The notes beneath the pieces are model-generated. The model worked only from the letters and a program-made list of their open reading frames with translations, did no database searches and was not told the DNA's origin. A stretch of DNA of 64,000 nt from Lichenibacterium ramalinae (GTDB taxonomy: Bacteria > Pseudomonadota > Alphaproteobacteria > Rhizobiales > Beijerinckiaceae): NCBI RefSeq assembly GCF_004137085.1, contig NZ_QYBC01000010.1, positions 124,001-188,000 on the forward strand, read 5' to 3'. Position numbers and translations under genes: made by a program. This document shows, one piece after another, positions 3-26,003 of the stretch (its first letter is position 1; the number at the start of each line of letters is the position of its first letter).

Positions 3-170
3 GTGGCGAACTCGGTCGGCAGTGTCGCTGGGTTCATCAGCCCCTACCTCCTCGGCTACGTGAAGGACCTCACGGGCAGCACCAACGCGGGCGTGCTCGT
101 CCTCTCGGTCGCGCTCATCATCGGCGCCGCGATGGTCTTCGTGACGCCTGCCCGGATGGTGAACCGGTGA
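3..170 (+). CDS. MFS transporter, C-terminal end (partial)
   Basis: An open frame enters from the left edge and ends at the TGA at 168-170. The visible 55 residues contain a SPYLLGYVKDLTG segment followed by one hydrophobic helix. This is the usual end of anion:cation symporter (ACS)-type major facilitator proteins, where the last two membrane segments sit. The stop overlaps the GTG start of the next gene by four bases, so the two are probably co-translated, and the substrate may be a carboxylate handled by the TPP enzyme. The substrate cannot be read from this fragment. Confidence 0.7.
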   Translation: MANSVGSVAGFISPYLLGYVKDLTGSTNAGVLVLSVALIIGAAMVFVTPARMVNR

Positions 171-1888
171 GCCCTGTCCCGCGGCAGACCGCCGCGGTCA
201 TCGCGCGGGTCCTTCGAACGCGCGGAATCGAACGGATCTACGGACTGTGCGGCGGTCACGTCATGCCGATCTGGATGGCGTTGGCGGAGGAGGGGATCCG
301 TATCGTCGACGTCCGTGACGAGCGCGCCGCCGTCCACATGGCACAAGCGGAGGCCGAACTGACCGGCCGCGTCGGTGTCGCCCTAGTCACCGCCGGACCG
401 GGAGTCACCAACGCCCTGACCGGCATCGCCAACGCCCACGTGTCACGCACGCCCGTGCTCGTCTTGTCCGGCACCACTCCCAGGCCGCAGGAGAACAGGG
501 GCGCGCTCCAGGACATGGACCACCCGAGCCTCGTGCGACCGGTGACGCGCTACGCACGCACCGTCCGAGACCCGGCCCTCGTGCCTCAGGAGCTCGCCGA
601 GGCCTTGGCACGCGCGGAGGGCGAGGGTGGCGACCCAGGTCCGGCCTTCCTGGATTTCCCCACTGACGTGCTGAGGGCGCCCGTCCCCGCGAGCATGCTG
701 CTCCCGGAGTTGGTCGAGCCTCGTCCACGGTTCCGCGCTCGCCCCGCTCCCGAGGCCGTGGCGAGCGCCGTGGACCTGCTCTGGTCGGCGCGCCGCCCGG
801 TCCTCCTGGCCGGCCGAGGCGCGCGCGGCTCCGGCGCCCGGGTTCGAGCTCTGATCGCCAGACTCGGCTGTCCCTACCTCGACACCGGGGAGAGCCGCGG
901 CTTGGTGCCGGAGGACGACCCGAACGCAGTGGGGTCGATGCGCGGCCGCGCCATGGCGGAGGCGGATCTCGTGGTCACGCTCGGGCGGCGGCTTGACTTC
1001 CAGCTCGCCTATGGATCGCCAGCCGTCTTCCGAGCCGCGCGATTCCTGCGCATCGCGGACAGCCCTGCCGAGTTGCGCGACAACCGATCCGGTGCGCTGG
1101 CAATCCTCGCGGACGTCGGAGAGACGCTCGAGGCGATGCTGCGCCACGCCGCGGACCGCCCGTCCTCCGTCGACCCGCGCTGGGCGGCGGAGTTACGCGA
1201 CGGGCATGCGGTCCGCGCGGCTTCGTTGCGGAAGACCCTGGCGGAGGCGCCGACGGGGGCGGACGGTCACATGCACCCCAATCGACTCGTCGCCGCGCTG
1301 CGGGACGTGCTGCCCCCGGACGCCACGCTGGCGATCGACGGTGGCGACTTCCTGAGCTTCGCACGCGTCGGCCTCTCGGCCGCCGCGGTCCTCGATCCCG
1401 GGCCGTTCGGTTGCCTGGGCGTCGGCGTGCCCTACGGCGTTGCGGCCGCGCTGGCCTACCCCGAACGGGTGACGGTGGTGGCGACGGGCGACGGAGCCTT
1501 CGGCTTCAACGCCGTCGAGATCGACACGGCGGTGCGCCACGATGCCAAGGTGCTGTTCGTGGTGGCCAACAATCGGGGCTGGCAGATCGAGGTCCGCGAC
1601 CAGGAAGTCACCCACGGCCGGGTCGTCGGGACCACGCTGCGGGACGCCGACTACGCCGCCATGGCGCGAGGCCTCGGGCTCTATGCCGAGCGGGTGGAGA
1701 GGGCCGAGGACCTGCCGGATGCGCTCGCACGCGCCCTCGCCCGGCGACCGGCCCTGCTCGACGTGGTGGTGACGTCCGACGCGGTCTCGTCCGACAGCAG
1801 GAGCGGGTTGGCCTGGGTACCCGACCTCCAGCCGTTGGCGGCTTGGAACGAGGCGGAGGCGGCGTGGCGGAAGTCCGGCGACGCATGA
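167..1888 (+). CDS. Thiamine pyrophosphate-dependent enzyme (acetolactate synthase/decarboxylase superfamily)
   Basis: The protein has 573 residues in the three-domain TPP fold of IlvB, oxalyl-CoA decarboxylase and benzoylformate decarboxylase. The N-terminal Pyr domain holds the cofactor-activating glutamate (VRDERAA, about residue 52) and the TAGPGVTNALTG loop. A central transhydrogenase-like domain follows. The C-terminal PP domain has the diphosphate/magnesium motif GDGAFGFNAVE (about 441) ending in ANNRGW (about 468). The GTG start overlaps the upstream MFS stop (GTGA), and its own stop overlaps the bluB start (ATGA). The exact 2-keto acid or acyl-CoA substrate is unknown. There is no small regulatory subunit nearby, which argues against a biosynthetic acetolactate synthase. 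Confidence 0.85.
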   Translation: MSPVPRQTAAVIARVLRTRGIERIYGLCGGHVMPIWMALAEEGIRIVDVRDERAAVHMAQAEAELTGRVGVALVTAGPGVTNALTGIANAHVSRTPVLVLSGTTPRPQENRGALQDMDHPSLVRPVTRYARTVRDPALVPQELAEALARAEGEGGDPGPAFLDFPTDVLRAPVPASMLLPELVEPRPRFRARPAPEAVASAVDLLWSARRPVLLAGRGARGSGARVRALIARLGCPYLDTGESRGLVPEDDPNAVGSMRGRAMAEADLVVTLGRRLDFQLAYGSPAVFRAARFLRIADSPAELRDNRSGALAILADVGETLEAMLRHAADRPSSVDPRWAAELRDGHAVRAASLRKTLAEAPTGADGHMHPNRLVAALRDVLPPDATLAIDGGDFLSFARVGLSAAAVLDPGPFGCLGVGVPYGVAAALAYPERVTVVATGDGAFGFNAVEIDTAVRHDAKVLFVVANNRGWQIEVRDQEVTHGRVVGTTLRDADYAAMARGLGLYAERVERAEDLPDALARALARRPALLDVVVTSDAVSSDSRSGLAWVPDLQPLAAWNEAEAAWRKSGDA

Positions 1889-2628
1889 TGGCGCGGGAGG
1901 GGCACGAGGTGTCATCCCAGGACGGGGGATCGAGCGGGCCCCGTCCCGCGGTCCCGGCCCCCTCGCGAAGCCCGGACCCAACCCAGCCTCTCCCGTCGAA
2001 GCGATTCGACGAGGCGTTCCGGGAGGACCTGCTGCACCTCCTCCGATGGCGGCGCGACGTCAGGCGGTTCAGGCGCGAGCCGCTTCCGGAGGGAACGCTG
2101 GAGCGTCTGATCGAGATCGCGGCCCTCGCCCCCTCAGTCGGCCTCAGCCAGCCTTGGCGCTTCGTCTCCGTCGAGGACGCCGGCCGGCGCAGGGCCGTTC
2201 GCGCCAATTTCGAGCGCTGCAACGCCGAAGCCCTGCGTCGGCAGTCGGGCGACCGGGGCACGCTCTACGCCCGCCTCAAGCTGGCGGGCATGGACGAGGC
2301 GCCGTGCCAATTCGCCCTCTTCGCCGACAGGAGCTGCTCCCAGGGACACGGCCTCGGTCGCCTGACCATGCCGGAGACGATCGAGTACTCCGCCGTCATG
2401 GCGCTCCACACACTCTGGCTCGCCGCGCGGGCGGAGGGGATCGGCCTGGGCTGGGTCTCCATCCTGGATCCCGCCTCGATCGCGCGAGACCTCGACGTGC
2501 CATCGGAATGGACCTTCGTGGGCTACTTCTGCTGCGGATTTCCGAGCATCGTCGACGACACGCCGGCGCTGGAGCGAGAGGGGTGGGAGGCGCGTTGCTC
2601 GCCGCTCTCCACCTATCTCCGGCGATGA
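1885..2628 (+). CDS. bluB: 5,6-dimethylbenzimidazole synthase BluB
   Basis: BluB is a nitroreductase-fold enzyme that fragments reduced FMN with oxygen to give 5,6-dimethylbenzimidazole, the lower ligand of cobalamin. The 247-residue product has the family's FMN-binding RRDVRRFRREPL stretch, the APSVGLSQPWRFV segment and a GIGLGWVSILDP segment near the C-terminus. An N-terminal extension of about 45 residues, rich in Pro and Ser, precedes the core, so a start further in is possible. The ATG at 1885 overlaps the TPP-enzyme stop. The downstream DUF1289 and BtuF-like genes and cobT use the same lower-ligand or corrinoid chemistry, and CobT consumes the DMB made here. Confidence 0.93.
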   Translation: MMAREGHEVSSQDGGSSGPRPAVPAPSRSPDPTQPLPSKRFDEAFREDLLHLLRWRRDVRRFRREPLPEGTLERLIEIAALAPSVGLSQPWRFVSVEDAGRRRAVRANFERCNAEALRRQSGDRGTLYARLKLAGMDEAPCQFALFADRSCSQGHGLGRLTMPETIEYSAVMALHTLWLAARAEGIGLGWVSILDPASIARDLDVPSEWTFVGYFCCGFPSIVDDTPALEREGWEARCSPLSTYLRR

Positions 2629-3578
2629 GGCCCCCGAACCCGCGGGACGCCGCACCGGGGCCGGCGTTCCCGGTCCTGGCACCCATCCCGAGCCCCTGCG
2701 TCGGCCTCTGCCGCATCGACGCCTCCAGCGGCCTCTGTCGGGGCTGCGCGCGGACAGGCGCCGAGATCGGCGGCTGGGCGGGTTCACCGGACCTGCGTCG
2801 GCGGGTCTGGGCCGAACTGCCGGCGCGGCGCGCGGCGCTCGGTCTGACAGTGCATCGCCTCGCATGGACGCTTGCCGACATTGGCGCGTTCGTCGAGGGC
2901 ACGTTCGAGTCGGAGGGGGGGCACTGGACGCCCGGCGCGTTCGCGGACCTCATGGCGTACCGCGTCGAGGGTAACGAACGGCCGACCGTCGCCGGTGGGG
3001 GTACACGTCTCCACGCTCGGGGACGACATGTCGCGATGCTGATCCATCTCGACGACCGCGTGCGAGCCTTGACCTTCGACGACGATGCGTCGTTTGGCAC
3101 GGTCGTGATGGCCGTGACCTCCGACCACGTGGTGTCGAGGACCGCGGACGCGATACGGCCGCTGGGGCGGGACCTTGAGGCCATTTCGACCGGTGGTTCG
3201 TCCGAGATGCTGTACGACCTCGGCCTCGGCGCACCGGCTGTCTCCCTGGCCCTGCGCACCGGCGACCCTAGGACGATCGCCATCCTCGACCGCCTCGCAG
3301 GCCGGCGGTGGCTCGACCTGCCCGCGTCGATGCGCGAGGCCGTGCTCGGCTCCTCGCCGTCCCGCGTCCTCCGGCATCCGCTCGGGCGGTTCGAGGCCTA
3401 CGGCCCCTGCCCGGTCGCGGACGATGTCGCCTCGGCAGGCTCCCCGCCCCCCGAACACAACGCGTGGGCGTCCGCGGGCCCTCGATGGACCTTCCCCGAC
3501 CTCCCGGAGGGCTACGTCCCCTGCGCGATCCACACGCCGTCGGGCGTCGAGCGCGACGGGGCGGGGACGCGGCCGTGA
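2625..3578 (+). CDS. DUF1289 domain protein with an unrecognised C-terminal domain
   Basis: The ATG at 2625 overlaps the bluB stop (ATGA). Residues about 25-50 form a DUF1289 cysteine cluster, PCVGLCRIDASSGLCRGCAR, probably a small metal-binding knuckle that often rides in cobalamin and oxidoreductase operons. The remaining roughly 260 residues are soluble and mixed alpha/beta. I do not recognise them. They include a run of Gly, His and Asp and a DPRTIAILDRLAGRRWLDLP segment. Free-standing DUF1289 proteins are usually well under 100 residues, so the fusion is notable. The GTG start of the next gene overlaps its stop. Position within a bluB-cobT operon suggests a corrinoid-related or iron-related role, but this is only inference. 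Confidence 0.7.
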   Translation: MRPPNPRDAAPGPAFPVLAPIPSPCVGLCRIDASSGLCRGCARTGAEIGGWAGSPDLRRRVWAELPARRAALGLTVHRLAWTLADIGAFVEGTFESEGGHWTPGAFADLMAYRVEGNERPTVAGGGTRLHARGRHVAMLIHLDDRVRALTFDDDASFGTVVMAVTSDHVVSRTADAIRPLGRDLEAISTGGSSEMLYDLGLGAPAVSLALRTGDPRTIAILDRLAGRRWLDLPASMREAVLGSSPSRVLRHPLGRFEAYGPCPVADDVASAGSPPPEHNAWASAGPRWTFPDLPEGYVPCAIHTPSGVERDGAGTRP

Positions 3579-4360
3579 GGGCCTTCCCGCCGCGCCGGAT
3601 CGTCTGCCTGACCGAGGAGACGGTCGAGACGCTCTACCTGCTCGGGGAGGACCATCGGATCGTCGGCGTGTCGGGCTACGCGGTCCGACCACCCCAGGTC
3701 AGGCGGGAGAAGCCCCGGGTGTCGGCCTTCGTGTCCGCCGACGTCCCGAAGATCCTGGCGCTCGATCCGGACCTCGTGCTCACCTTCTCCGACCTGCAGG
3801 CGCAGATCGTGGCGGATCTGGTCCGGGCCGGCGTCGCGGTACACGCGTTCAACCAGCGCGACGTCGCCGGCATCCTCGCGATGATCCGCACGGTCGGCGC
3901 GTTGGTTGCGGCGACGGAAGCGGCCGAGGCGCTGGCCTCGCGCTACGAGAGGCGTCTCGCCGAGGTGGCCGAGGCGGCGTCGGCTCGCCCCCGCCGGAGG
4001 GTCTACTTCGAGGAGTGGGACGCTCCGCTGATCAGCGGCATCGGCTGGGTCTCCGACCTGGTGCGGATCGCCGGCGGCGACGACGTCTTCGCCGACCTCG
4101 GCAGACGAGCCGCGGCGAAGGATCGTATCGTGGCGCCGGAGGCAGTCGTCGACGCGGCGCCGGAGGTCATCCTCGCCTCGTGGTGCGGCAAGAAGGTCGT
4201 CCCGGAGCGGATCCGAGCCCGGCCCGGCTGGGACTCGATCCCCGCCGTACGTCTCGGCCGGATCTTCGAGATCAAGTCGTCGATCATCCTCCAACCGGGC
4301 CCGGCAGCGCTGACGGACGGTCTTGACGCCGTCCTGGCGGCGCTGACGTCCCCCCGGTGA
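3575..4360 (+). CDS. BtuF-like cobalamin-binding protein without signal peptide
   Basis: The 261-residue protein matches the periplasmic-binding fold of BtuF/FepB-type proteins: an N-terminal RIVCLTEETVETLYLLG strand-helix, a VSADVPKILALDPDLVLTFSDLQ segment, then the linking helix and a second lobe beginning RRVYFEEWDAPLISG. The GTG start overlaps the preceding stop (GTGA). No signal peptide or lipobox is visible from this start, and no BtuC or BtuD gene is nearby. It therefore either acts in the cytoplasm as a corrinoid-binding protein or depends on an export signal that cannot be seen. Members of this family encoded in alphaproteobacterial cob loci are often leaderless (from memory). Confidence 0.82.
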   Translation: MRAFPPRRIVCLTEETVETLYLLGEDHRIVGVSGYAVRPPQVRREKPRVSAFVSADVPKILALDPDLVLTFSDLQAQIVADLVRAGVAVHAFNQRDVAGILAMIRTVGALVAATEAAEALASRYERRLAEVAEAASARPRRRVYFEEWDAPLISGIGWVSDLVRIAGGDDVFADLGRRAAAKDRIVAPEAVVDAAPEVILASWCGKKVVPERIRARPGWDSIPAVRLGRIFEIKSSIILQPGPAALTDGLDAVLAALTSPR

Positions 4361-4595
4361 AGGTCGGCGCCACGACGCCGCGAACGGCCCGATGGGACCG
4401 GACCGTCACGGGGTCCGCCCGTCACCGTCGTCTCGCGCGACGGCAGGGCTCCTCGCACGGTGTCCCGATCACGTCGCAGAACCTCGATGCACCAGGCACC
4501 CCGCCCTCGAGCCCGAGCCCCCGATAACCAGCACCCTGCCCCTGGACGACATCCGCGCCGTCCTGACCCATATCCCGCCGCTCGACGAGTAGGCT

Positions 4596-5636
4596 GTGGC
4601 CGCCGTTCGCGCGCGCGACGCACAACTGACGAAGCCGCCCGGCTCGCTCGGCAGGTTGGAGGAACTCGCCGTCTGGCTCGGGGCCGTGCAGGCCAGGGCC
4701 GTCCCGACCGCCTCCAGGCAGATGGTGGCGGTCTTCGCGGGCAACCATGGGGTCGCGGCACGAGGCGTGTCGCCCTACCCGTCCTCGGTCACGGCCGCCA
4801 TGGTGGCGAACTTCGGGGCCGGTGGGGCCGCCATCAACCAGATCTGCAGTCACCTCGGCCTCGGGCTGAAGGTCTTCGAGCTAGCTCTGGACATCCCCAC
4901 CGGCGACATCGCGTCCGGACCCGCGCTCGATGAGGCCGCCTGTGCCGCGACGATCGCCTTCGGCATGGAGGCCGTTCACGACGCCGACCTCATCTGCGTG
5001 GGCGAGATGGGCATCGGCAACACGACGGTGGCGGCAGCGATCTACGCCGCACTGTACGGCGGGGATGCGGCGCATTGGGTTGGCCGCGGCACCGGCGTGG
5101 ACGACGCGGGCCTCGCCCGCAAGGTGGCAGTGGTGGAGGAGGCCGTGGCCCTGCACCGCGACCACCTCTCCGATCCGCTCGAGGTGCTGCGTCGGCTCGG
5201 TGGGCGCGAGGTGGCCGCGATGGTGGGGGCCATCCTCGCGGCCCGCCTCGAGCGCGTTCCGGTGATCCTCGACGGCTACGTCGTCTGCGCGGCCGCGGCC
5301 GTGCTCCACGCCCTCCACCCCGCGGCGCTCGACCACTGCGTGGCGGGGCATCGCTCGGTCGAGGGTGCCCACGGTGACGTGCTGCGGCGCCTCGGCAAGA
5401 CGCCGTTGCTGGACCTCGGGCTCAGGCTGGGCGAAGGCACGGGCGCCGCGTTGGCCACGGCTCTCGTGCGCTCGGCTCTCGCCTGCCACACGGGCATGCC
5501 ACCTTCGACCAGGCCGGCGTGGCCAACCGGGACTGACCGGTTTCACGATCGCCCTGCCGGCAAGACGTCGCCTCCCGGGGCACCGGGACCGACCGACCGG
5601 GATGGGGCGACGCTTCATGACACTGTCGCTGCGTGA
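4596..5636 (+). CDS. cobT: Nicotinate-nucleotide-dimethylbenzimidazole phosphoribosyltransferase CobT, damaged at both ends
   Basis: CobT transfers phosphoribose from nicotinate mononucleotide to DMB, giving alpha-ribazole phosphate. The core is clear: QLTKPPGSLGRLEELA, FAGNHGVAARGVSPYP, GEMGIGNTTVAAA, and the AGHRSVEGAH segment. The usual N-terminus (LPLDDIRAVLTHIP) lies upstream in the same frame from about 4524. It is cut off by an in-frame TAG at 4590-4592, and the expected ATG reads ATA at 4524. The usual C-terminus (ATFDQAGVANRD, stop 5534-5536) is out of frame by one base near 5498, so the open frame runs on to 5636 with unrelated residues. A GTG at 4596 could restart translation. The reconstructed ancestral length of 337 residues matches the family. 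Confidence 0.85.
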   Translation: MAAVRARDAQLTKPPGSLGRLEELAVWLGAVQARAVPTASRQMVAVFAGNHGVAARGVSPYPSSVTAAMVANFGAGGAAINQICSHLGLGLKVFELALDIPTGDIASGPALDEAACAATIAFGMEAVHDADLICVGEMGIGNTTVAAAIYAALYGGDAAHWVGRGTGVDDAGLARKVAVVEEAVALHRDHLSDPLEVLRRLGGREVAAMVGAILAARLERVPVILDGYVVCAAAAVLHALHPAALDHCVAGHRSVEGAHGDVLRRLGKTPLLDLGLRLGEGTGAALATALVRSALACHTGMPPSTRPAWPTGTDRFHDRPAGKTSPPGAPGPTDRDGATLHDTVAA

Positions 5637-5749: not shown

Positions 5750-6814
5750 TCAGGTTCCGTCGACGGTACGGATCGTGACCTCGTCGAGGCGTTTGAGCCT
5801 GTAGATCGCGAAGGAGAGTGCCCAGGCGAAGGCGAATATGCCGATGATGGCGAAGCCGAGAGCGTTGAAGTTGTCGTTCAGGGCCCCGATCCTGTCCCAG
5901 AACACGCCTTTGAGGTCGAGCTGATCGCCTATGAGCCGCAGCGCCTCGATGCTGCCGATCAGCACGGCGATGACGACGGACACCAGGGTGATGGTCATGT
6001 TGTAGAACAGCTTGCGCATGGGCTTGACGAAAGCCCAGTCATAGGCGCCGAGCATCAACACACCGTCCGTGGTGTCCACAAGTGACATGCCGGCGGCGAA
6101 CAGCACGGGGAACACCATGATCGCCGCGAGTGGGACGCCCTTGGCCGCTTGAGCCGCGGAGACGCCGAACACCGCCACCTCCGTCGCCGTGTCGAAGCCG
6201 AGCCCGAACAGGAAGCCGAGCGGGAACATGTGCCAGCTGCGGCTCACCATGCGAAACGCGGGCCTGAACAGGCGTGACAGGAACCCGCGATTGTTCAGCA
6301 GCATGTCGAGGTCCTCCTCGACGTAGGTCCCGCCGGCCCGCACGCGCCGATAGGTTCGGTAGACCGCGGCGAAGATCGCCACGTTCATGGCCGCGATCAA
6401 CAGCAGGAAGGCCGAGGACACGCCCGTGCTGATGACACCCCCGACACCCTTCAGAATTTCGAAGCCGTCGACCGCCGTCGCAGCCGCCACGACGGCCGCG
6501 GAGGCGAGCACAACGACCATGGAATGACCGAGGGCGAAGAAGAAGCCGACTGCGACCGGCTTGCGCCCGCCCTGCATCAACTTGCGCGTGACGTTGTCGA
6601 TGGCGGCGATGTGGTCCGCGTCTACGGCGTGGCGAAGTCCCAGACCATAGACCACCAGAGCGATGCCGAGCAGGGTCGGGGTGGCGCGGAACGCGAATAA
6701 CGCCCATCCCCAGGCGCCGAGGTTGAGGACGGCGAGCAGGCCGTAGATCGCCACGAGGCGACCGCGAAGCCCGGACGTCTCTTCGTCGAGCAGGCCGGTG
6801 ATGATTCTGAGCAT
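5750..6814 (-). CDS. Nickel/cobalt transporter, NiCoT (HoxN/NixA) family
   Basis: This is a single-subunit membrane permease for Co2+ or Ni2+. From the ATG at 6814 it has 354 residues and about eight hydrophobic helices. The family signatures are all present: RHAVDADHIAAIDN (61-74, the metal-selectivity helix), LGHSMVVV (95-102), GLGFDTATE (204-212) and GMSLVDTTDG (242-251). A longer reading from 6913 would run into the riboswitch, so 6814 is preferred. A cobalamin riboswitch lies directly upstream. Cobalt is therefore the likely metal, feeding the corrin ring, with expression turned off when cobalamin is plentiful. Confidence 0.93.
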   Translation of the reverse strand: MLRIITGLLDEETSGLRGRLVAIYGLLAVLNLGAWGWALFAFRATPTLLGIALVVYGLGLRHAVDADHIAAIDNVTRKLMQGGRKPVAVGFFFALGHSMVVVLASAAVVAAATAVDGFEILKGVGGVISTGVSSAFLLLIAAMNVAIFAAVYRTYRRVRAGGTYVEEDLDMLLNNRGFLSRLFRPAFRMVSRSWHMFPLGFLFGLGFDTATEVAVFGVSAAQAAKGVPLAAIMVFPVLFAAGMSLVDTTDGVLMLGAYDWAFVKPMRKLFYNMTITLVSVVIAVLIGSIEALRLIGDQLDLKGVFWDRIGALNDNFNALGFAIIGIFAFAWALSFAIYRLKRLDEVTIRTVDGT

Positions 6815-6918
6815 GAGACGTGGTTCTCGATGTCGCACGTCATCACGGTCGCTCGGCCTGCGTTCGGCTCCGCACGCCAGGGCACCCCGCCCGACGTTCC
6901 GCTCTGACACCATCGATG

Positions 6919-7081
6919 GCAGGTCTCCTGGCTCGCGGGTCGGCGCCGCTCCCGCCTTCCCAGACCCCGGGGTCCAGTGGCTTCATGGGAGAAGCTCGTC
7001 GCTCACAGTTGCGGGGGCAGCCGCGGCAGGGGGGCATGCGCCCCCTTCCGCGTTCCCTTTCAAGCCCTTCCGGGCACCATC
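6919..7081 (-). promoter_or_regulatory. Cobalamin (AdoCbl) riboswitch
   Basis: Read on the minus strand, the leader begins GGTGCCCGGAAGGGCTTGAA, continues GGGAACGCGG, then CCCGCAACTGTGAGCGACGA, and has the B12-box core GCCACTGG followed by GGGAAGGCGGG and the closing CGCGAGCCAGGAGACCTGCC. These are the conserved blocks of the cobalamin riboswitch in their normal order. It ends about 105 bases before the start of the NiCoT gene. AdoCbl binding should lower transporter expression. It is the only such element I see in the window. Confidence 0.93.
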
Positions 7082-7417
7082 AGATTCAGGTTATCCGAGC
7101 CGACGTGGTCAAGCAATCGACTTGGCTTCATTTGAGATGCCGCAATCGAATGGTCATCGATTTCGATGAAGTCGAGATCAGTCCTCAACAACGCGCGCCG
7201 TGGGTTTGTGGCGGGCCGTCGTCATCCACCTTCAAGCCGGCCGCGACGCAAACCGGCCTGGGAGGCTGGATCCTGATCGCGAGGGATGGCGTCGACGTCG
7301 AGGTGACGAGCGTCAGACGCCTCGCGTTTCGAGGCCTTCCGGGCCCGACGCCTACGACGACGTCCCGGTGGTGCCAGATCGGACGGCGGGGGACGTGCGT
7401 CCGCTCCGGACACCGGA
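7082..7417. other. Intergenic region upstream of the riboswitch
   Basis: No convincing gene is present. The part nearest the riboswitch is less GC-rich than its surroundings and probably holds the minus-strand promoter of the NiCoT transcript. A perfect palindrome CATCGA-TT-TCGATG lies at 7155-7168, a possible operator. The remainder, up to the adenosyltransferase stop, shows no recognisable element. Confidence 0.4.
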
Positions 7418-7999
7418 CTAGCGGTTCTGGCCGGGAACCCACAGCACGTCGCCATCCCTGAGCGAGTTGCAGTGGCGGGAAGCCACGAAGAGGAAGTCCG
7501 ACAGGCGGTTCACATACCCCAGAGCAGCCGCGCTGACCGGCTCCTCGGCCACGACCTTCAACTCCACCATCTGCCGTTCGGCGCGGCGGCAGATCGTACG
7601 GGCGAGGTGGAGGTGCGTCGCAGCCGGCGTGCCACCGGGCAGCACGAAGCTGCGGAGTGGTTGCAGGGCGGCATTGAGGTCGTCGATCTCCCGTTCCAAT
7701 CGATCCACCTGAGCCTGCACCATACGAAGGCGCGACCCTTCGGCCTCACCGTCGACCGCAGGGGTCGCGAGGTCAGCCCCGAGATCGAACAGGTCGTTCT
7801 GGATGCGTCCGAGCATGGCATCGAGGGCGGAAGACTCGGACACGGCCGCGAGCCGCGCGAGTCCGATCGCGGCGTTGCACTCGTCCACCGTCCCGTAGGC
7901 GGCGATGCGCAAGTCCGACTTGACCCGGCGTTCGCCCGAGCCGAGCGCCGTCGTCCCTTCGTCGCCGGTGCGCGTATAGATGCGATTGAGAACTACCAC
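7418..7999 (-). CDS. Cob(I)alamin adenosyltransferase, PduO type
   Basis: The enzyme transfers the 5'-deoxyadenosyl group of ATP to cob(I)alamin. Read from the GTG at 7999, the protein has 193 residues, the normal length. It opens with the family's VLNRIYTRTGDEGTTALGSG, continues with YGTVDECNAAIGLAR, and ends with the ATP-binding CRRAERQMVEL helix and VNRLSDFLFVASR. Purine-rich GAAGGGG precedes the GTG. A longer reading to 8167 adds only low-complexity Arg/Ala sequence. An unrelated CobO-type adenosyltransferase is also encoded at 11233, so the locus has two non-homologous enzymes for the same step. Confidence 0.93.
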   Translation of the reverse strand: MVVLNRIYTRTGDEGTTALGSGERRVKSDLRIAAYGTVDECNAAIGLARLAAVSESSALDAMLGRIQNDLFDLGADLATPAVDGEAEGSRLRMVQAQVDRLEREIDDLNAALQPLRSFVLPGGTPAATHLHLARTICRRAERQMVELKVVAEEPVSAAALGYVNRLSDFLFVASRHCNSLRDGDVLWVPGQNR

Positions 8000-8237
8000 G
8001 ACCTGTGCCCCTTCTCGGTGGAGGTCCGGGATGACCCCAGTACCGAACTCGCCGGGCCAGCGTGTCGCGCACCGACGCGGCCTTGCGACGCCGCGTCGTG
8101 ACGCCCAGGCGGGCCGGCTTGGTCGAGCGACCGCGGCTAGAATGGATGGCGCGACGGCCGCGGGCAAGACCAGGCTAGACGTCGCCGGGCCTTTCGCCAG
8201 CGTGGCCCTGGAACCCGGTTGACCTCGCGGACGGCGG

Positions 8238-10255: not shown

Positions 10256-11137
10256 ATGATCGATCTTCGGCAGTTTCGATACTTCGTGGCACTCGATGAG
10301 ACACTGCACTTCGGGCGAGCCGCCGAACGTCTCGGCATGAGCCAGCCCCCGCTGAGCAGGCAGATCGCCGCGCTCGAGAGGGAGTTGGGCGTTGTCCTGA
10401 TCGAGCGTCGTCCGAGACAGGCGACGTTGACCTACGCCGGCCGGCGCTTCCTCGAGGACGCACGGGCAGTCCTGAGCTCGTTCGACCAAGCGTGCCGCAA
10501 CGCGCAGCTGGCCGAGCGCGGCGAACGCGGTGAGCTGTCGATCGGATTCATGATGCATGCGGCCCACACGGTAGTGCCGGGGCTGGCGCGGCGCTTCATG
10601 GCCAGTCACCCCGAGGTGCACGTCCAGTTGCGGGAGGTCGTTCCGAGTTCCCTCGCCGACGCGGTCCTCACCGGACGGTTCGACGCCGCCATCCTGTTCA
10701 ACCCGGGTCCCCTGCGCGGATTGGGGATCCGCTCGATCCACACGGAGCGGTTATGCGTCGTCGTGCGCGAGGATCACGTGCTCGCCGGCCGTGCTCTGGT
10801 CGACGCCCGGCAGCTGCATGGGGAGCCCCTGATCGCGGCACCGGCGGAGGTCGCACCGCTCCTGCGCCACCTCATCCTGAGCTACTGCCGGTCTGGAGGG
10901 TTCGAGCCGGTCGTGCGGTTGGAGACCCAGCTTCAACAGACGATCCTGAGCCTCGTCGCCGAAGGCCTGGGGATCGCCTTGGTGCCGGAGTCCATGCGCA
11001 AGCTCGGGGTTGCCGACGTGGTCTTTCGCGACCTCGCGGACGCGCCCGTCATTGAACACGTCGTCGCTTGGCGGCCGGGCAACCTCAACCCGGCACTCCG
11101 ACCCTTCCTCGCGGAGGCGGGGGTGCCCGTTGCCTGA
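10256..11137 (+). CDS. LysR-family transcriptional regulator
   Basis: The 293-residue protein has the standard LTTR layout: an N-terminal winged helix-turn-helix (LRQFRYFVALDETLHFGRAA then ERLGMSQPPLSRQIAALE) and a two-lobed effector domain that begins about residue 90 (GELSIGFM). It is transcribed away from the AEC-family transporter, the usual arrangement for a regulator and its target. The effector is not predictable. The target gene appears frameshifted, so the regulator may have lost its function or may act elsewhere. Confidence 0.92.
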   Translation: MIDLRQFRYFVALDETLHFGRAAERLGMSQPPLSRQIAALERELGVVLIERRPRQATLTYAGRRFLEDARAVLSSFDQACRNAQLAERGERGELSIGFMMHAAHTVVPGLARRFMASHPEVHVQLREVVPSSLADAVLTGRFDAAILFNPGPLRGLGIRSIHTERLCVVVREDHVLAGRALVDARQLHGEPLIAAPAEVAPLLRHLILSYCRSGGFEPVVRLETQLQQTILSLVAEGLGIALVPESMRKLGVADVVFRDLADAPVIEHVVAWRPGNLNPALRPFLAEAGVPVA

Positions 11138-11232
11138 TCGCCGTTCGCCCCCGAGGTGATGGCCGGTGTGTGACGCGGTCGGTCCCAAGCGGCCGTGTCG
11201 ACGGCGCGACCGCTTGGATGTATGCCGGTCCC

Positions 11233-11835
11233 ATGACCGACGACGCCCTCCGCCACAAGCTCAAGATGGCCCATCGCAAGTCCGTGCAGGATGCCGAGGT
11301 CGCCTCCAAGGCCATCGCCGAGAAGGGCCTGCTTATGGTCAACACCGGCCCGGGCAAGGGCAAGTCGACCGCCGCCTTCGGCCTCGTGGTGCGAGCGCTC
11401 GGCCACGGATGGCCGGTCGGCGTCGTGCAATTCATCAAGGGAGCTTGGGACACCGGGGAGCGGCGCCTGCTCGAAGGCTCGCAACTCGTGCGCTGGCATT
11501 CGATGGGCGAGGGCTTCACCTGGGAGACGCAGGACCGGGCCCGCGACGTCGCGGCCGCGTCGGCCGCCTGGGCCAAGGCGCTGGAGCTGACGGCGGATCC
11601 CACCATCCGGCTCGTCGTCCTCGACGAGCTCAACGTCGCGCTGCGCTACGACTACCTGCCCGTTCCGGACGTGGTGGCGGCGCTCGCGGCGCGGCGGCCT
11701 GACCTCCACGTCGTCGTCACGGGGCGCAACGCCAAGCCCGAGTTGCTCGAGGCCGCCGATCTCGTCACCGAGTTCGGAGCCACCAAGCACCACTTCGCCG
11801 CTGGGGTGAAGGCGCAGGCGGGGATCGAGTTCTGA
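11233..11835 (+). CDS. cobO: Corrinoid adenosyltransferase CobO
   Basis: This is the BtuR/CobO-type P-loop ATP:corrinoid adenosyltransferase, acting on cob(I)yrinic acid a,c-diamide or salvaged corrinoids. The 200-residue protein has the Walker A loop GPGKGKST (39-46), the [15 protein letters not shown] segment and VVLDELN (128-134). It ends with the conserved [18 protein letters not shown]-type tail. The ATG at 11233 is preferred over upstream in-frame starts because it gives the family length. cobQ follows about 26 bases downstream, so the two are probably one operon. Confidence 0.95.
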
Positions 11836-11861: not shown

Positions 11862-13304
11862 ATGCTGCAGGGCACGGGATCGAACGTCGGCAAGTCGCTG
11901 ATCGTGGCGGGCCTCGCGCGCGCCTACGCGCGCCGCGGGCTGCGCGTGCGCCCGTTCAAGCCGCAGAACATGTCCAACAACGCCGCCGTGACGGCCGACG
12001 GCGGCGAGATCGGCCGCGCCCAGGCGCTCCAGGCCCGGGCCGCCGGGGTGGAGCCGACCGTGCACATGAACCCCGTGCTGCTGAAGCCCCAGAGCGAGAT
12101 CGGGTCGCAGGTCGTCGTCCAGGGCCGGGTGATCGGCAACGCCAAGGCTCGCGAGTACCAGTCGTGGAAGCCCCGCCTCATGGAGGCCGTCCTCGACAGC
12201 TTCGGCCGGCTCGCCGGTGAGGCCGATCTCATCCACGTCGAGGGGGCGGGCTCGCCCGCCGAGGTGAACCTGCGCGCAAACGACATCGCCATCATGGGCT
12301 TCGCCCGCCGCGCGGACGTCCCCGTGGTGCTGATCGGCGACATCGACCGAGGCGGCGTCGTCGCCCAGATCGTCGGCACGAGCGTCGTGATCGACCCAGA
12401 GGACGCCGCCCTGGTGGCGGGTTTCCTCGTCAACAAGTTCTACGGCGACCCCACCCTCTTCGAGGACGGCATGGCGTTCATCTCCGAGCGCACCGGCTGG
12501 CCCGCGCTCGGCCTCGTGCTGCACTTCGCCGCCGCCGCCCGCCTGCCGGCCGAGGACGCGGTGGCGCTCGACCGGGCGATCCAGTCCCGGCTCTGCGCCA
12601 GGGCGCGGATCGCCGTCCCGGTCCTGCCGCGCATATCGAACTTCGACGACCTCGACCCCCTGAAGCTCGAAGCCGACGTCGACCTCCTGATGGTGCGGGC
12701 CGGCACCGCCCTGCCAGTCTGCGACTTGGTCGTCCTGCCAGGTTCGAAGGCGACAGTCGCCGACCTTGGCGCGTTGCGTTCCGCGGGCTGGGACATCGAC
12801 ATCCTCGCCCATGTCCGCCGAGGCGGGCGCGTGCTCGGCCTCTGTGGCGGTTACCAGATGCTCGGGCGATCCGTCGGTGACCCGCTCGGCCTCGAGGGCC
12901 CGCCCGGGACCGTCGCGGGCTTGGGTTTGCTCGACGTCGACACGGTCCTGGGAGACGACAAGGTCCTTCGTCCGGTCGTCGGGCGCACGGTCGCCGACGG
13001 GGAGCCGTTCTCGGATTACGAGATGCACATGGGCAAAACGCGCGGACCCGATCGAGCGCGGCCGGTGCTGCGGTTCTCGGATGGCACGTGCGACGGCGCT
13101 GCGTCGGCCGACGGGCGGGTGGCGGGTTGCTACGTCCACGGGCTCTTCGCCGACGATCGCCAGCGCGCCGCTTGGCTGCACCGACTCGGGGCCGAGCCCA
13201 CGGACTTCGCCTATGAGGCGGAGGTCGAGCGCGTGCTCGACGGCCTCGCCGCGCATCTGGAAGAACACGTGGACCTAGATCGCATGCTGGCCCTGGCTCG
13301 CTAG
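11862..13304 (+). CDS. cobQ: Adenosylcobyric acid synthase CobQ
   Basis: CobQ amidates four side chains of adenosylcobyrinic acid a,c-diamide using glutamine and ATP. At 480 residues it shows the N-terminal dethiobiotin-synthetase-like ATPase ([10 protein letters not shown], 3-12; [14 protein letters not shown]), the [13 protein letters not shown] and [11 protein letters not shown] segments, and a C-terminal class I-like glutamine amidotransferase. In the amidotransferase the nucleophile is Cys in [10 protein letters not shown] (about 328) and the histidine is in CYVHGLF (about 426). In relatives the protein often begins with two or three more residues before LMLQGTG. Here no better start codon precedes the ATG at 11862. 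It follows cobO closely. Confidence 0.95.
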
Positions 13305-13316
13305 CGAGGTCCCCGG

Positions 13317-14285
13317 TCAGCGAACGAGTAGCGCGACGCCCGCCACGACCGCGAACTGCACCACGCAGGCTACGCGGTAGAGTCTTAGCGCCGCGCGTAT
13401 GTCGGCCGCCTTCGCCTCCCTGCGCCCGTCGCCCATGTAGGAATCTTCGACCGTCACGGCTGCGTAGACGCGAGGACCCGCAAGTCGCAGGCCGAGCGCA
13501 CCCGCCATGGCGGCCTCTGGCCAGCCCGCGTTGGGCGAGCGGTGGCTCGCGGCATCGCGACGCACGGCCGCCCATGCTCCTGGACCGGAGGTGTCGGTGA
13601 GGGCTGCCGCGACTCCGATCCAGAGGGCGGCGAGACGCGAGGCCGGTAGGTTGACGAGGTCGTCGAAGCGTGCTGCTGCCCATCCGAACGCAGCGTAGCG
13701 CTCGGTGCGATGTCCGATCATGCTGTCCGCCGTGTTGACCACCTTGTAGAGAGCGCATCCTGGAAGGCCGCCGACGAGGAGCCAGAGGGTCGGCGCCACG
13801 ACGCCATCGGAGAAGTTCTCGGCGAGGCTCTCGATGGCCGCCCTCGCCACGCCGCCCTCGTCGAGGACCGCCGTGTCCCGTCCGACGATCATGCCGGCGG
13901 CGATTCGCCCCGCCTCCAGGCCCTCGCGCTCGAGCGCCACTGCCACGTCGCGGACATGGTCATAGAGGCTGCGTTGAGCCGGCAGGCTCGAGGCGGTGAT
14001 CGCAAGCACGACAAGGCCTAGGACTGATCGTCCCAGCGCGAGCTGGACCGGCACGGTCGCGAGCGCCGTCACCGTGAGGAGGACCACCAGCGTCAGCACG
14101 CCGGCCGCGCGACGCTCGCCGAAGCTATGGGTCGGAACGTTGAGGCGTCTCTCCAAGGCGGAGATCCCGGCGCCGATCCAGGTGACGGGATGGCCGAGCA
14201 CGCGGTACACCGGGGCCGGATAGCCGACCAAGGCTTCGATCGCCAAGGCGAGACAGCAGAGCGGTACGGTAATGGAGAGTGACAT
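13317..14285 (-). CDS. cobD: Adenosylcobinamide-phosphate synthase CobD/CbiB
   Basis: This membrane enzyme joins adenosylcobyric acid to (R)-1-amino-2-propanol phosphate. It has several hydrophobic helices and the family blocks GYPAPVYRVLGHPVTWIG, then SLAENFSDGVVAPTLW, then YKVVNTADSMIGHRTERY and WPEAAMAGALGLRLAGP. The ATG at 14285 gives 322 residues. A start at 14318 would add 11 residues. Its 5' end overlaps the 5' end of cobC on the opposite strand, so the two coding regions share their first 14 bases. The 3' end is convergent with cobQ, separated by 12 bases. Confidence 0.93.
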   Translation of the reverse strand: MSLSITVPLCCLALAIEALVGYPAPVYRVLGHPVTWIGAGISALERRLNVPTHSFGERRAAGVLTLVVLLTVTALATVPVQLALGRSVLGLVVLAITASSLPAQRSLYDHVRDVAVALEREGLEAGRIAAGMIVGRDTAVLDEGGVARAAIESLAENFSDGVVAPTLWLLVGGLPGCALYKVVNTADSMIGHRTERYAAFGWAAARFDDLVNLPASRLAALWIGVAAALTDTSGPGAWAAVRRDAASHRSPNAGWPEAAMAGALGLRLAGPRVYAAVTVEDSYMGDGRREAKAADIRAALRLYRVACVVQFAVVAGVALLVR

Positions 14286-15282
14286 CACGGCGACGGACGA
14301 GGGACGGGGACGGTTCACCTACCACGGCGGCGACCTCGCCGCGGCACGGTCCGCCTATCCTGGCGCTCCCGAACCCTGGGTCGACCTGTCGACGGGTATC
14401 AACCCCATACCATATGCCGTTCCGTCGCTCCCCATGGACGCCTGGGCGGCCCTTCCAAGCGCCGCCGCGGCGCGTGCCCTCGAGGCGGCGGCAGCTCGCG
14501 CCTATGGGGCGGAGCCCGACAACATCGTAGGCGCGCCAGGCACGGAAGCGCTGATCCAGTGGCTGCCTCGTCTGCATCGGGCCCGGCGGGTCGGCGTCCT
14601 CGGGTTCACCTACGGCGATCACGCCCGCTCCTGGCGTAGCGCCGGCGCCGAGGTCGACGTCGTCGATGACCTGGCCGCGCTCGAGGGCTACGACGTCGCC
14701 GTCGTGGTCAACCCCAACAACCCCGACGGACGGCTCGTCGAGCCCGACGCTTTGGTGAGGCTGGCAAGGCGCGTGGGCTTGTTGGTGGTCGACGAGGCGT
14801 TCGCGGACGTCGTGTCTAGTGATTGGAGTCTCGCTACCAGGCCTCCGCCGAACGGTTTGGTGCTGCGCTCGTTCGGCAAGTTCTTCGGTCTCGCGGGTCT
14901 ACGGCTCGGGTTCGCCGTCACGGCGACCGATCGCGCTACCTCGCTGCGTGCCGCCTTCGGCCCCTGGGCCGTGAGCGGTCCCGCCGTCGCAGTGGGCACA
15001 AGGGCCTTTGCCGACGATGTGTGGGCGTCGTCGTCGCTCACGCGTCTCGCGCAGGACGCCGGGCGGCTTGACGTCTTGCTGCGGGACGCGGGTGCCGTTT
15101 TGGTCGGCGGCACGACGTTATACCGCCTCGCGGAGTTCGACGACGCGGCTGGAACATTCGACGCTCTGGCACACGCCGGTTTGCTGACGCGGCCGTTCGC
15201 GGAGCGGCCGCGATGGTTACGGTTCGGCTTGCCGGTAGACGAGGCGGCATGGCAGCGGCTTTCGGGTGCACTCCGGCGCTGA
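14272..15282 (+). CDS. cobC: Threonine-phosphate decarboxylase CobC
   Basis: This PLP-dependent fold-type I enzyme (named CobC in Pseudomonas denitrificans) decarboxylates L-threonine O-3-phosphate to supply the aminopropanol phosphate used by CobD. The 336-residue product has HGGDLAAARSAYPGAPEPWV, LSTGINPIPY, the VVNPNNPDGR substrate loop, DEAFADV, and the PLP lysine in RSFGKFFGLAGLRLGF (Lys about 203). It is divergent from cobD with overlapping starts. These two enzymes act in succession, so expression from one shared regulatory region makes sense. Confidence 0.95.
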   Translation: MESDITATDEGRGRFTYHGGDLAAARSAYPGAPEPWVDLSTGINPIPYAVPSLPMDAWAALPSAAAARALEAAAARAYGAEPDNIVGAPGTEALIQWLPRLHRARRVGVLGFTYGDHARSWRSAGAEVDVVDDLAALEGYDVAVVVNPNNPDGRLVEPDALVRLARRVGLLVVDEAFADVVSSDWSLATRPPPNGLVLRSFGKFFGLAGLRLGFAVTATDRATSLRAAFGPWAVSGPAVAVGTRAFADDVWASSSLTRLAQDAGRLDVLLRDAGAVLVGGTTLYRLAEFDDAAGTFDALAHAGLLTRPFAERPRWLRFGLPVDEAAWQRLSGALRR

Positions 15283-23377: not shown

Positions 23378-23498
23378 GGGGTGAAATCGCCTTTGATAAC
23401 AACAGCTAAGCGTTCTTTGCCGGTCGCCTCGGCCCTTTGTGCATGGACGATTCACACACCGTGCAGAATCCCATTGATTACGATCGCGAATCGACCGA

Positions 23499-23537
23499 CA
23501 TTCCCGCTTGTCGGAATGAACGCTTCGAAAAAGCGTT
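23499..23537. promoter_or_regulatory. Two adjacent inverted repeats upstream of repA
   Basis: CATTCC-N8-GGAATG (23499-23518) is followed immediately by AACGCTT-CGAAA-AAGCGTT (23519-23537). Both are perfect and end 19 bases before the ATG at 23557. RepA proteins of repABC modules repress their own operon, so these are good operator candidates. They could also form hairpins in the repA leader. The region 22990-23498 holds the upstream parS-like site and no gene. Confidence 0.5.
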
Positions 23538-23556
23538 ATTCCCAGGAACGAGTTCG

Positions 23557-24768
23557 ATGGACGAGGCGGTACCGATGCCGGATCTGGAGGTGTTCAGCTT
23601 CCACGAGACGATCTCCCAGCAGGGGGCGCTCATCTCGGAGAAGCTGAACATGCTGCGCGTCCAGCATTATCCCCCGGACGCCATGAAGGGTCTGCGATCG
23701 TTCTCGCTCGCGGAGGTCGCCTACTTCCTCGGCGTCACGCAGTCCAACGTCAAGAAGCTCCATCTCGACGGCAAGGGTCCTACCCCGACGACGTCGCAGT
23801 CCGGACGGCGCACCTACACGGCGGCGCAGATGCTCGAACTTCGCCACTACCTCGACCGGCACGGACGAAGCGACGTGAAGCGCTACGTGCCGCACCGGCG
23901 GCCCGGGGAGGCGTTGCAGGTCGTCAGCGTCGTGAACTTCAAGGGTGGGTCAGGCAAGACGACGACGGCCGCGCATCTGGCCCAGCACCTGGCCCTGACC
24001 GGTCACCGCGTCCTGGCGATCGACCTCGACCCGCAGGCCTCGTTGACGGCGCTCCACGGCATCCAGCCAGAACTCGACAGGAACCCGTCCCTGTACGACG
24101 CCATCCGTTACGACGACAGGCAGAGACCCATCGCCGAGGTTATCAGGCCGACGAACTTCCCGGGCCTCGACATCGTGCCGGCGAACCTGGAACTGCAGGA
24201 GTACGAGTACGACACACCCCTGGCCGCCTCGACGAGTCAGGCGGACGGCAAGCTCTTCTTCACTCGGATCACGAATGCCCTCAAGCAGGTGGACGCCGAC
24301 TACGACGTCGTCGTGATCGACTGCCCCCCTCAGCTCGGCTACCTGACCCTGACGGCGCTCACTGCGTCGACCTCCGCCGTGATCACGATCCACCCGCAGA
24401 TGCTGGACGTACTCTCGATGAGCCAGTTCCTGCAGATGCTCGGTGGGATCCTCGAGTCGATAGCCGGCGCGGGAGCGAAGGTGGGCCTTCGGTGGTTCCG
24501 CTACCTCGTCACGAGGTACGAGCCGACCGATGGCCCCCAGGCCCAGATGGTCGGGTTCATGCAGGCCCTCTTCCCCAAGCAGGTCCTGACGAACCAGATG
24601 GTCAAGTCCACGGCCATCTCCGACGCGGGCATCACGAATCAGACGCTCTACGAGGTCGACCGCGGACAGATGATCCGGTCGACCTACGACCGGGCCCTGG
24701 AGGCGCTCAACGCGGTCAACGAGGAGATCACGTCCCTCGTGCACCAGGCCTGGGGGAGGCGCGTTTGA
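23557..24768 (+). CDS. repA: Plasmid partitioning ATPase RepA (ParA family)
   Basis: RepA is the Walker-type ATPase of repABC replicons. It moves plasmid copies bound by RepB and represses the operon. From the ATG at 23557 it has 403 residues, the normal length. The N-terminal helix-turn-helix (FSLAEVAYFLGVTQSNVKKL) is followed by the characteristic HLDGKGPTP segment. The deviant Walker A is FKGGSGKTTT (about 128-137), then LAIDLDPQASLTALHG, VVIDCPPQLGYLTLTAL and IHPQMLDVLSMSQFL. An open frame to 23437 adds 40 residues across the two palindromes and is less likely. The stop lies inside the second parS-like site. Confidence 0.94.
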   Translation: MDEAVPMPDLEVFSFHETISQQGALISEKLNMLRVQHYPPDAMKGLRSFSLAEVAYFLGVTQSNVKKLHLDGKGPTPTTSQSGRRTYTAAQMLELRHYLDRHGRSDVKRYVPHRRPGEALQVVSVVNFKGGSGKTTTAAHLAQHLALTGHRVLAIDLDPQASLTALHGIQPELDRNPSLYDAIRYDDRQRPIAEVIRPTNFPGLDIVPANLELQEYEYDTPLAASTSQADGKLFFTRITNALKQVDADYDVVVIDCPPQLGYLTLTALTASTSAVITIHPQMLDVLSMSQFLQMLGGILESIAGAGAKVGLRWFRYLVTRYEPTDGPQAQMVGFMQALFPKQVLTNQMVKSTAISDAGITNQTLYEVDRGQMIRSTYDRALEALNAVNEEITSLVHQAWGRRV

Positions 24769-24782
24769 CAGCCGTGCGAAAC
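24763..24782. repeat. parS-like partition site between repA and repB
   Basis: GTTTGACAGCCGTGCGAAAC overlaps the repA stop codon. It has GTTT/AAAC arms and the same 13-base core as the site at 23361. Partition sites in the repA-repB gap are a known arrangement in repABC replicons, and RepB is the expected binder. Confidence 0.6.
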
Positions 24783-24824
24783 ACCGTTTCTCGCCGGTTT
24801 CTCAAGACCATGGTGGGCTAGGCC

Positions 24825-25790
24825 ATGCGCAAGAACCTCATGGACCGGGTCCTCGACGCTCCCACGTCACCTCGCCCGGAGGCCGCCCGGCACGGCGCCG
24901 CGCGGTCCATGACGCGCTCGATCGAGGAGCTGGCGGAGAACGTCAAGCGCATGCAAGAGGGCGAGGTCGTCACGAGCCTCGACGTCGAGCTGGTGGAGGC
25001 CTCGTTCGTGTCGGATCGCATCGACCACGACGACGAGGACTACGCGCGCCTGCGCGAGGCGATAGCGGGGCAGGGACAGTCCACCCCGATCCTGGTTCGA
25101 CCGCATCCGGACCGTGACGGCCGGTACATGATCGTCTACGGCCACCGCCGCGCGCGCGTGGCCCGCGAACTCGGCCGTCCCGTGCGGGCCGTCATCAAGA
25201 ACCTCGAGGACATCGCCCACGTCGTCGCCCAGGGGCAGGAGAACAGCGCCCGCGCGAACCTCTCGTTCATCGAGAAGGCGCTCTTCGCGAAGAAGCTGCT
25301 CGCGATGGGCCAGGCCAAGGACGTGATCAAGAGCGCCCTCTCCGTCGACGACACGCTGCTCTCGCGCATGCTGTCCGTCGCGGAGACGGTGCCCGGGCCC
25401 GTGCTCGACGCCGTGGGAGCGGCCAAGGGGGTCGGGCGCGATCGGTGGGAGGAGCTCAAGAAGCTGCTCGCGATCCCGGCCAAGGCCCTGTTCGCCGCCG
25501 AGGTCGTCGCGGGCGAGGACTTCCGGGTCAAGGAGGGAGCCGCGCGCTTCGACCACCTGCTGACGCAGGTCCGATCCGGCCGCAGGCCGACCGTCCGCAA
25601 GCCCGCGGTGGCGTCGACCTCGCACTGGGCCGCTCCAGACAGGAGCGTCGAGGCGGCCTACAGGCGTTCCGGCAAGAGCTTCAGCCTCTCCCTGTCGTCG
25701 AAGGACGGCGGTGAGTTCGGCGACTTCATTTCGTCTCGGCTGGAGCGGCTCTACGCCGAGTTCAGCGAGGCGAGGTCCCGCAAGGAGTAG
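24825..25790 (+). CDS. repB: Plasmid partitioning protein RepB (ParB family)
   Basis: RepB binds parS centromeres and links them to RepA. The 321-residue protein shows the ParB N-terminal nuclease-like domain, with GQGQSTPILVRPHPD followed by MIVYGHRRARVARELG (the GHRRxxA motif). The central HTH region follows (SFIEKALFAKKLLAMGQAKD, then SVDDTLLSRMLSVAETVP). The C-terminal dimerisation tail is basic and Ser-rich. It follows repA after a 56-base gap containing a parS-like site and precedes the antisense RNA/repC interval, the canonical repABC order. Confidence 0.94.
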   Translation: MRKNLMDRVLDAPTSPRPEAARHGAARSMTRSIEELAENVKRMQEGEVVTSLDVELVEASFVSDRIDHDDEDYARLREAIAGQGQSTPILVRPHPDRDGRYMIVYGHRRARVARELGRPVRAVIKNLEDIAHVVAQGQENSARANLSFIEKALFAKKLLAMGQAKDVIKSALSVDDTLLSRMLSVAETVPGPVLDAVGAAKGVGRDRWEELKKLLAIPAKALFAAEVVAGEDFRVKEGAARFDHLLTQVRSGRRPTVRKPAVASTSHWAAPDRSVEAAYRRSGKSFSLSLSSKDGGEFGDFISSRLERLYAEFSEARSRKE

Positions 25791-25860
25791 GGGAGACCCC
25801 CCGCTCTGACGCGCGGCCGGGCAATCCCGCTCGGTCGCCATCACTAGGAGACGAACCGGC

Positions 25861-25914
25861 AAAAGAAAAAGGCCCCCAAGACGAACGTCCCGGAAGCCCT
25901 TCTCCTTGTTTGGC
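25861..25914 (-). ncRNA. Antisense ctRNA (incompatibility RNA) between repB and repC
   Basis: On the minus strand the repB-repC gap contains GGGCTTCCGGGACG-TTC-GTCTTGGGGGCC followed by a run of T (TTTTTCTTTT). This forms a stem of about 13 base pairs, including G-U pairs, with GAC/GTC at the top, and is a textbook rho-independent terminator. A promoter lies correctly upstream at 25921-25949. All studied repABC replicons carry a small counter-transcribed RNA here that represses repC and sets copy number. The 5' end near 25914 is estimated from promoter spacing. Confidence 0.8.
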
Positions 25915-25920
25915 GACTAG

Positions 25921-25949
25921 AGAATCGCACTTCCGCACATCGCAGTCAA
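25921..25949 (-). promoter_or_regulatory. Promoter of the antisense ctRNA
   Basis: On the minus strand TTGACT (25949-25944), a 17-base spacer and GATTCT (25926-25921) form a strong sigma-70-like promoter. It fires away from repC into the repB-repC gap, toward the terminator hairpin at 25861-25905. Confidence 0.65.
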
Positions 25950-26003
25950 GCGTTGGACGCCGTTTCGGCGAGCGGATTTCCTTTGCCCGGACGCGAGGCA
26001 AGG

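Follow-up and report, generated by a model that had tools for sequence, protein, structure and literature searches.

The described systems closest to the locus reported here are two plasmids on which cobalamin genes accompany a B12-dependent pathway. According to passages of PMC3621897, pCMU01 of Methylorubrum extorquens CM4 is a large plasmid with redundant cobalamin genes, among them a second bluB, cobO, cobQ and NaMN:DMB phosphoribosyltransferase gene (cobU2); it lacks cobV, which is termed cobS here. The set is linked there to a corrinoid-dependent pathway for chloromethane, and the plasmid holds 35 pseudogenes, corresponding to 9% of its CDS. The second plasmid, pELW1-1 of Mycolicibacterium sp. 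ELW1, is actinobacterial; the parts of PMC13188929 that deal with its ibc cluster 2 (isobutylene/2-HIBA) list a 2-HIBA-CoA ligase, the subunits of a B12-dependent mutase, an auxiliary protein and a 3-hydroxybutyryl-CoA dehydrogenase, together with an almost full set of cobalamin genes, for which paralogues exist on the chromosome. The words 'cobT' and 'pseudogene' are absent from the main text of that report.

The enzyme at issue is nicotinate-nucleotide:dimethylbenzimidazole phosphoribosyltransferase, CobT. In the P. denitrificans naming, as set out in a passage of PMC3621897, its gene is cobU, and cobT denotes a cobaltochelatase subunit. The CobT proteins of S. enterica and Thermus thermophilus (PDB 1d0s and 1j33) have family and fold in common with the product of the gene examined here, which differs in lacking the first helix and the conserved C-terminus. 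The general-base glutamate of the S. enterica enzyme is given as E317 in part of PMC9561151.

The stretch of DNA that was analysed, hereafter the window, comprises 64,000 nucleotides of contig NZ_QYBC01000010.1 (C13) of Lichenibacterium ramalinae, and plain coordinates below refer to it. C13 shares with pCMU01, to the extent of the passages cited above, the redundant cobalamin genes, the second bluB, cobO, cobQ and phosphoribosyltransferase gene, the lack of cobS and the link to a corrinoid-dependent pathway, with 2-hydroxyisobutyrate in place of chloromethane. The cobT (cobU2) of pCMU01 has an ordinary cobT annotation and its product is 56% identical to the window CobT; cobB and cobN are both present on C13 and missing from pCMU01, as judged from one 31-kb region of that plasmid and the same passages. 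With pELW1-1, C13 shares the catabolic genes and the presence of cobalamin paralogues elsewhere in the genome; in contrast to what is described for pELW1-1 in those parts of its report, C13 has no detected cobS and a broken cobT. C13 thus combines the features of this type of plasmid: a plasmid-type replicon, paralogues on other contigs (C51, C30 and C56, presumably chromosomal) and a linked corrinoid-dependent catabolic enzyme. Our preferred reading, with a probability of about 0.82, is that the window holds a redundant cobT paralogue, borne by a repABC replicon and inactivated recently.

A repABC replicon with a second cobalamin gene set

C13 is 216 kb in size. A repA, repB, repC operon occupies 23437..27230 on the forward strand, with matches to TIGR03453, TIGR03454 and NF040974 that all exceed their cut-offs, and a ctRNA_p42d antisense RNA (25859-25903, reverse strand, 52.6 bits) falls in the gap between repB and repC. 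C13 is therefore a repABC replicon.

The cobalamin genes within the window begin with bluB, encoding 5,6-dimethylbenzimidazole synthase (1900..2628, forward; TIGR02476, 261.9 bits against a cut-off of 150). A gene for a DUF1289 and DUF6925 fusion (2646-3578) separates it from one for a BtuF-like periplasmic binding protein (3308..4360, forward; PF01497 over residues 98-324), the true start of which is probably downstream of the listed GTG. Beyond cobT lie, on the reverse strand, genes for a NicO-type nickel/cobalt transporter (5750..6913; PF03824, 329 bits) and a PduO-type ATP:cob(I)alamin adenosyltransferase (7418..8167; PF01923 and TIGR00636). A search for riboswitches that covered the window and the loci L049, L050 and L060 returned cobalamin riboswitches at two places, both on the reverse strand: upstream of the NicO gene (6901..7096; RF00174, 111.5 bits) and upstream of cobW (L049:10959-11190, also on C13). 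Further along the window are uninterrupted copies of cobO (11068..11835, forward), cobQ (11862..13304, forward), cobD/cbiB (13317..14318, reverse; PF03186, 308 bits, and 71% to a frame on C56) and cobC of the threonine-phosphate decarboxylase type (14272..15282, forward; TIGR01140, 321.7 bits against 290.55). Profile matches and open frames thus bear out the preliminary description, which had regarded bluB, cobO, cobQ, cobC and cobD as intact.

Upstream of the window, C13 carries cobB, cbiD, a precorrin-8X methylmutase gene, cobN and cobW, and the contig has five corrin methylase places in all. Second copies of cobO and cobQ are found on C56, and those of cobB, cobN and the corrin methylases on C56 or C30. 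Twelve plasmid cob genes other than cobT are uninterrupted: ten by comparison with second copies (cobO, cobQ, cobD/cbiB, cbiD, cobN, cobW and four corrin methylases, one of them in part), and two, cobB and the precorrin-8X methylmutase gene, by near-whole coverage of the family profile. Synonymous divergence between copies differs by gene, with Ks values of 0.38 for cobO, 0.39 for cobN, 0.72 for cobQ, 0.74 for cobB and 0.82 for cobT, and these values do not support the idea that the plasmid genes arose as one recent block copy. As a separate observation, the CobN encoded on C30 (L111:15542-12003, reverse) contains some 66 residues (185-250) that have no counterpart in the plasmid CobN (L049:9356-6066, reverse), with the same frame on both sides. 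Another contig holds a TP_methylase match with one in-frame TAG (G000:C66:116117-116506).

A B12-dependent 2-hydroxyisobutyryl-CoA pathway

Just upstream of the window, profile and structure-sequence matches define an operon-like run (L049:12951-17645, equivalent to C13:116951-121645) that encodes, in order, a B12-binding small subunit, a PaaK-like acyl-CoA ligase, a MeaB-type GTPase and a mutase large subunit. This last, HcmA-like protein, encoded approximately 2.4 kb before the window start, scores 1040 bits against PDB 4r3u, a 2-hydroxyisobutyryl-CoA mutase, the next best being methylmalonyl-CoA mutase at 446 bits. The ligase reaches 267 bits with the PaaK model, whose cut-off is 646. At a strict threshold of E <= 1e-200, the mutase match occurs in one of 149 genomes of the family, that of L. 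ramalinae alone. The window itself adds a 3-hydroxybutyryl-CoA dehydrogenase (8238-9119) and a TPP enzyme of the 2-hydroxyacyl-CoA lyase family (167..1888, forward; NF058623, 782.7 bits against a cut-off of 600). A lyase that acts on 2-hydroxyisobutyryl-CoA and depends on TPP has been described (part of PMC7176365), and two 2-hydroxyisobutyryl-CoA routes, through the mutase and through the predicted lyase, may coexist on this replicon. The proximity of the two gene groups suggests a link between catabolic and cobalamin genes in this genome.

Lesions in the window cobT

The remnant of the plasmid-borne cobT extends over 4524..5536 on the forward strand and matches PF02277 with 372 bits across one TAG. 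The frame from 4524 to 5498 is that of CobT on both sides of this TAG, with 82% amino acid identity to L001, the second copy of this genome, and 83% to L026 from the same genus. Three departures from a normal gene had been reported in the preliminary description, and reading and alignment confirm each of them and its position. The first is an ATA (4524..4526) where relatives start, as is evident from the alignment with L001 and L026 and from column counts. The second is an in-frame TAG (4590..4592). The third is a change of frame (5497..5500), where a one-base loss adjoining position 5498 replaces the conserved C-terminus by 45 residues that bear no relation to CobT. The C-terminus of the family can be read from 5499 onwards only in another frame, to a stop at 5534-5536. 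The as-written open frame runs from a GTG (4596-4598) to a TGA (5634-5636) and encodes 346 amino acids, the last 45 of which are the unrelated tail that had been predicted for the GTG-started product.

These departures are not due to chance, since a match of 372 bits to PF02277 contains a single in-frame stop and, of 41 CobT places listed from a set of 41 genomes, 38 of which gave a match, the window copy alone is interrupted by an internal stop. The claim of a lost start is softer than first stated. Although ATA does stand where relatives begin, it is a rare start on the NCBI table-11 list, and an in-frame ATG is present upstream at 4392 with no stop between it and the TAG; the start change alone is therefore no hard lesion. 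As read from the sequence, the hard lesions are the TAG and the frame change, each independent of the other, and because of them the window gene lacks an uninterrupted frame from family start to family C-terminus, the frame having changed by 5499. Programmed frameshifting and read-through of the TAG were considered and provisionally set aside.

A complete cobT on C51 next to the sole cobS match

That another cobT might exist elsewhere had been foreseen, and a genome-wide search of the 76 contigs located it. Exactly two PF02277 places were found, with no third: that of the window and one on C51 (C51:88732-89679), which is a complete, lesion-free gene for a CobT of 338 residues (PF02277, 376 bits; TIGR03160, 373.2 bits against a cut-off of 319.3). 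The sole cobS match in the genome adjoins this gene in divergent orientation, and the same genome search found no cobS on C13. Since cobS adjoins cobT in each of five further genomes from this genus and at 17 of 18 named loci (Bosea, Camelimonas, Methylorubrum, Microvirga and Lutimaribacter, as well as MAGs), C51 looks like the ancestral cobT site. The one exception among the 18, L063, shows no cobS in the 18 kb covered.

In a tree of 32 rows, in which the window copy was entered twice, this copy is sister to its three closest relatives, the copies of C51 and of genomes G001 and G002, and the group has support of 100/99. The nearest named CobT relatives include Bosea, Camelimonas and Methylorubrum. 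In the family-wide sample, CobT was detected at E <= 1e-60 in 135 of 149 genomes, and only four have two CobT places: L. ramalinae, G010, G057 and G116, the last two with partial places on different contigs. No CobT in these four genomes is closer than 85% to the window copy, apart from itself.

With a complete cobT retained next to the one cobS found, the loss of the plasmid gene would have been cheap for this genome. As the repABC replicon on which it lies carries a second cobalamin set, the broken cobT is a spare. This second set, without cobS, sits on the replicon near the B12-dependent 2-hydroxyisobutyryl-CoA mutase pathway, and DMB would still be activated by the CobT of C51 and attached by CobS. 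The loss would then have been neutral, and it is well known that plasmid paralogues decay when they are redundant.

Is the trimmed product a working enzyme?

The inactivation has to be weighed against a second reading, in which a trimmed enzyme is made from the GTG at 4596, perhaps by re-initiation three bases past the TAG, and functions although the first helix is missing and the tail is new and disordered. The frame 4596-5636 is open for all 346 residues. It scores 362.6 bits against PF02277 and 367.3 against TIGR03160, above the curated equivalog cut-off of 319.3, and automatic annotation may therefore name it a normal cobT. The glutamate of the LGEG(T/S)G motif, invariant in 17 alignment rows, is kept as E280 of the GTG form and may be the counterpart of S. 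enterica E317. The AlphaFold model of the as-written product is predicted to fold like CobT, its best Foldseek match being 1j33 (TM 0.81/0.84). Moreover, residue 2 of the Thermus CobT (1wx1, 335 aa) aligns with residue 22 of L001, so that the Thermus enzyme naturally begins near the position of the GTG; by our own count from the L001 alignment, the GTG form is only some five residues shorter at its N-terminus. We therefore regard it as possible that the first 24 codons are dispensable, as the Thermus protein does without most of the same N-terminus.

The C-terminus argues the other way. The as-written product lacks the ATF..AGV segment, in which T, F and A are the same in all 47 relatives and V in 45 of them, and which is also found in the Thermus CobT. 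In its place, residues 311-346 of the model have pLDDT values below 50; when the intact relative L063 was modelled, such values were restricted to residues 1-5 and 342-344. In each of the 47 relatives the chosen start is upstream of the GTG, although the script that made the choice favoured the expected place, and by eye there is no clear ribosome-binding site before 4596. The lost tail with its invariant residues, the disordered replacement and the independence of the TAG and the frame change all speak for inactivation; the confinement of the lesions to the two ends and the score of the GTG frame above the TIGR03160 cut-off speak against it. We consider a working trimmed enzyme unlikely and, judging from the sequence, expect the as-written product to be inactive. 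It is more doubtful still that the plasmid CobT has been retained in end-trimmed form through re-initiation, with end lesions that altered its expression or its partners and were not fatal.

A probable recent loss

The state of the core bears on both readings. Columns were taken as conserved if kept in at least 95% of the 47 relatives, which gives 95 in all, four of them in the lost tail; before the altered tail, the window CobT departs at just one of the remaining 91, as would also be expected of a trimmed enzyme in use. Ka/Ks between the window copy and its three nearest intact copies (L001, L018 and L026) is 0.13-0.15, and 0.12-0.15 among those three. Private changes amount to about 21 nonsynonymous and 51 synonymous in the window copy, against 10 and 46 pooled over the three others, which is not a significant rise (Fisher P 0.15). 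With so well-kept a core, the gene probably functioned through most of its existence and broke only recently. The core nonetheless shows fewer changes than is usual after neutral decay to three lesions, and this counts against the preferred reading of a recently inactivated paralogue: when the decay of the intact paralogue was simulated to three lesions, one conserved-site change or fewer was seen in 5%, 13% and 31% of runs at indel/substitution ratios of 0.05, 0.1 and 0.2, respectively.

Less likely readings: sequence error and an impaired host

A base-calling or assembly error, with cobT intact in the cell, is a further reading. The assembly is a draft of 76 contigs, and a second frameshifted gene is located some 4 kb away: the AEC permease gene (9222-10156, reverse) is split, with Mem_trans positions 4-287 and 289-342 falling in different frames, the second part scoring 22.5 bits (E 4.9e-5), just below the family cut-off of 25.7. 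This frameshift may represent further decay or a hint of local error. However, two of the three departures in cobT look like substitutions and the twelve other plasmid cob genes are uninterrupted, and for these reasons an error is improbable; three independent errors within 1 kb would in any case be hard to credit.

Two further screens for broken genes were attempted. A codon-model scan for frame switches, which took in C13 and also twelve stretches from elsewhere in the assembly, reported many events in nearly all stretches, both on the plasmid and off it, and missed the known changes in cobT and the permease gene, and no rate of broken genes was drawn from it. A homology comparison flagged two of 11 frames on C30, none of three on C56, one of three in G001, one of six in G002 and, for the window, its own cobT (one of one). 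The flagged frames other than cobT were rejected as broken genes, since the frame chosen was in whole or in part that of the wrong strand: the first lies opposite cobB, the second partly opposite cobN (no Pfam match), the third opposite cobS, and the fourth opposite cobT, from where it extends into cobS. The follow-up on the sense strand used stop-to-stop frames that extend past the gene ends; the stops around cobB were ambiguous in this respect, and the 471-aa frame of the plasmid cobB was relied upon.

The earlier proposal that the host is impaired in lower-ligand activation follows from the disabling lesions of the plasmid copy and is very improbable, as the C51 gene beside cobS is complete and free of lesions.

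Implications

Taken by itself, the window cobT would seem to be an ordinary spare gene that was redundant and fell into decay recently, and it carries a caution: a broken biosynthetic gene in one window tells nothing of the phenotype before the whole genome has been searched. The gene context is more useful than the broken cobT, namely a repABC replicon that unites a 2-hydroxyisobutyryl-CoA mutase pathway with cobalamin genes. C13 thereby joins pCMU01 and pELW1-1, as these are portrayed in the cited parts of their reports, as a case in which a B12-dependent catabolic pathway brings along part of its own B12 synthesis.
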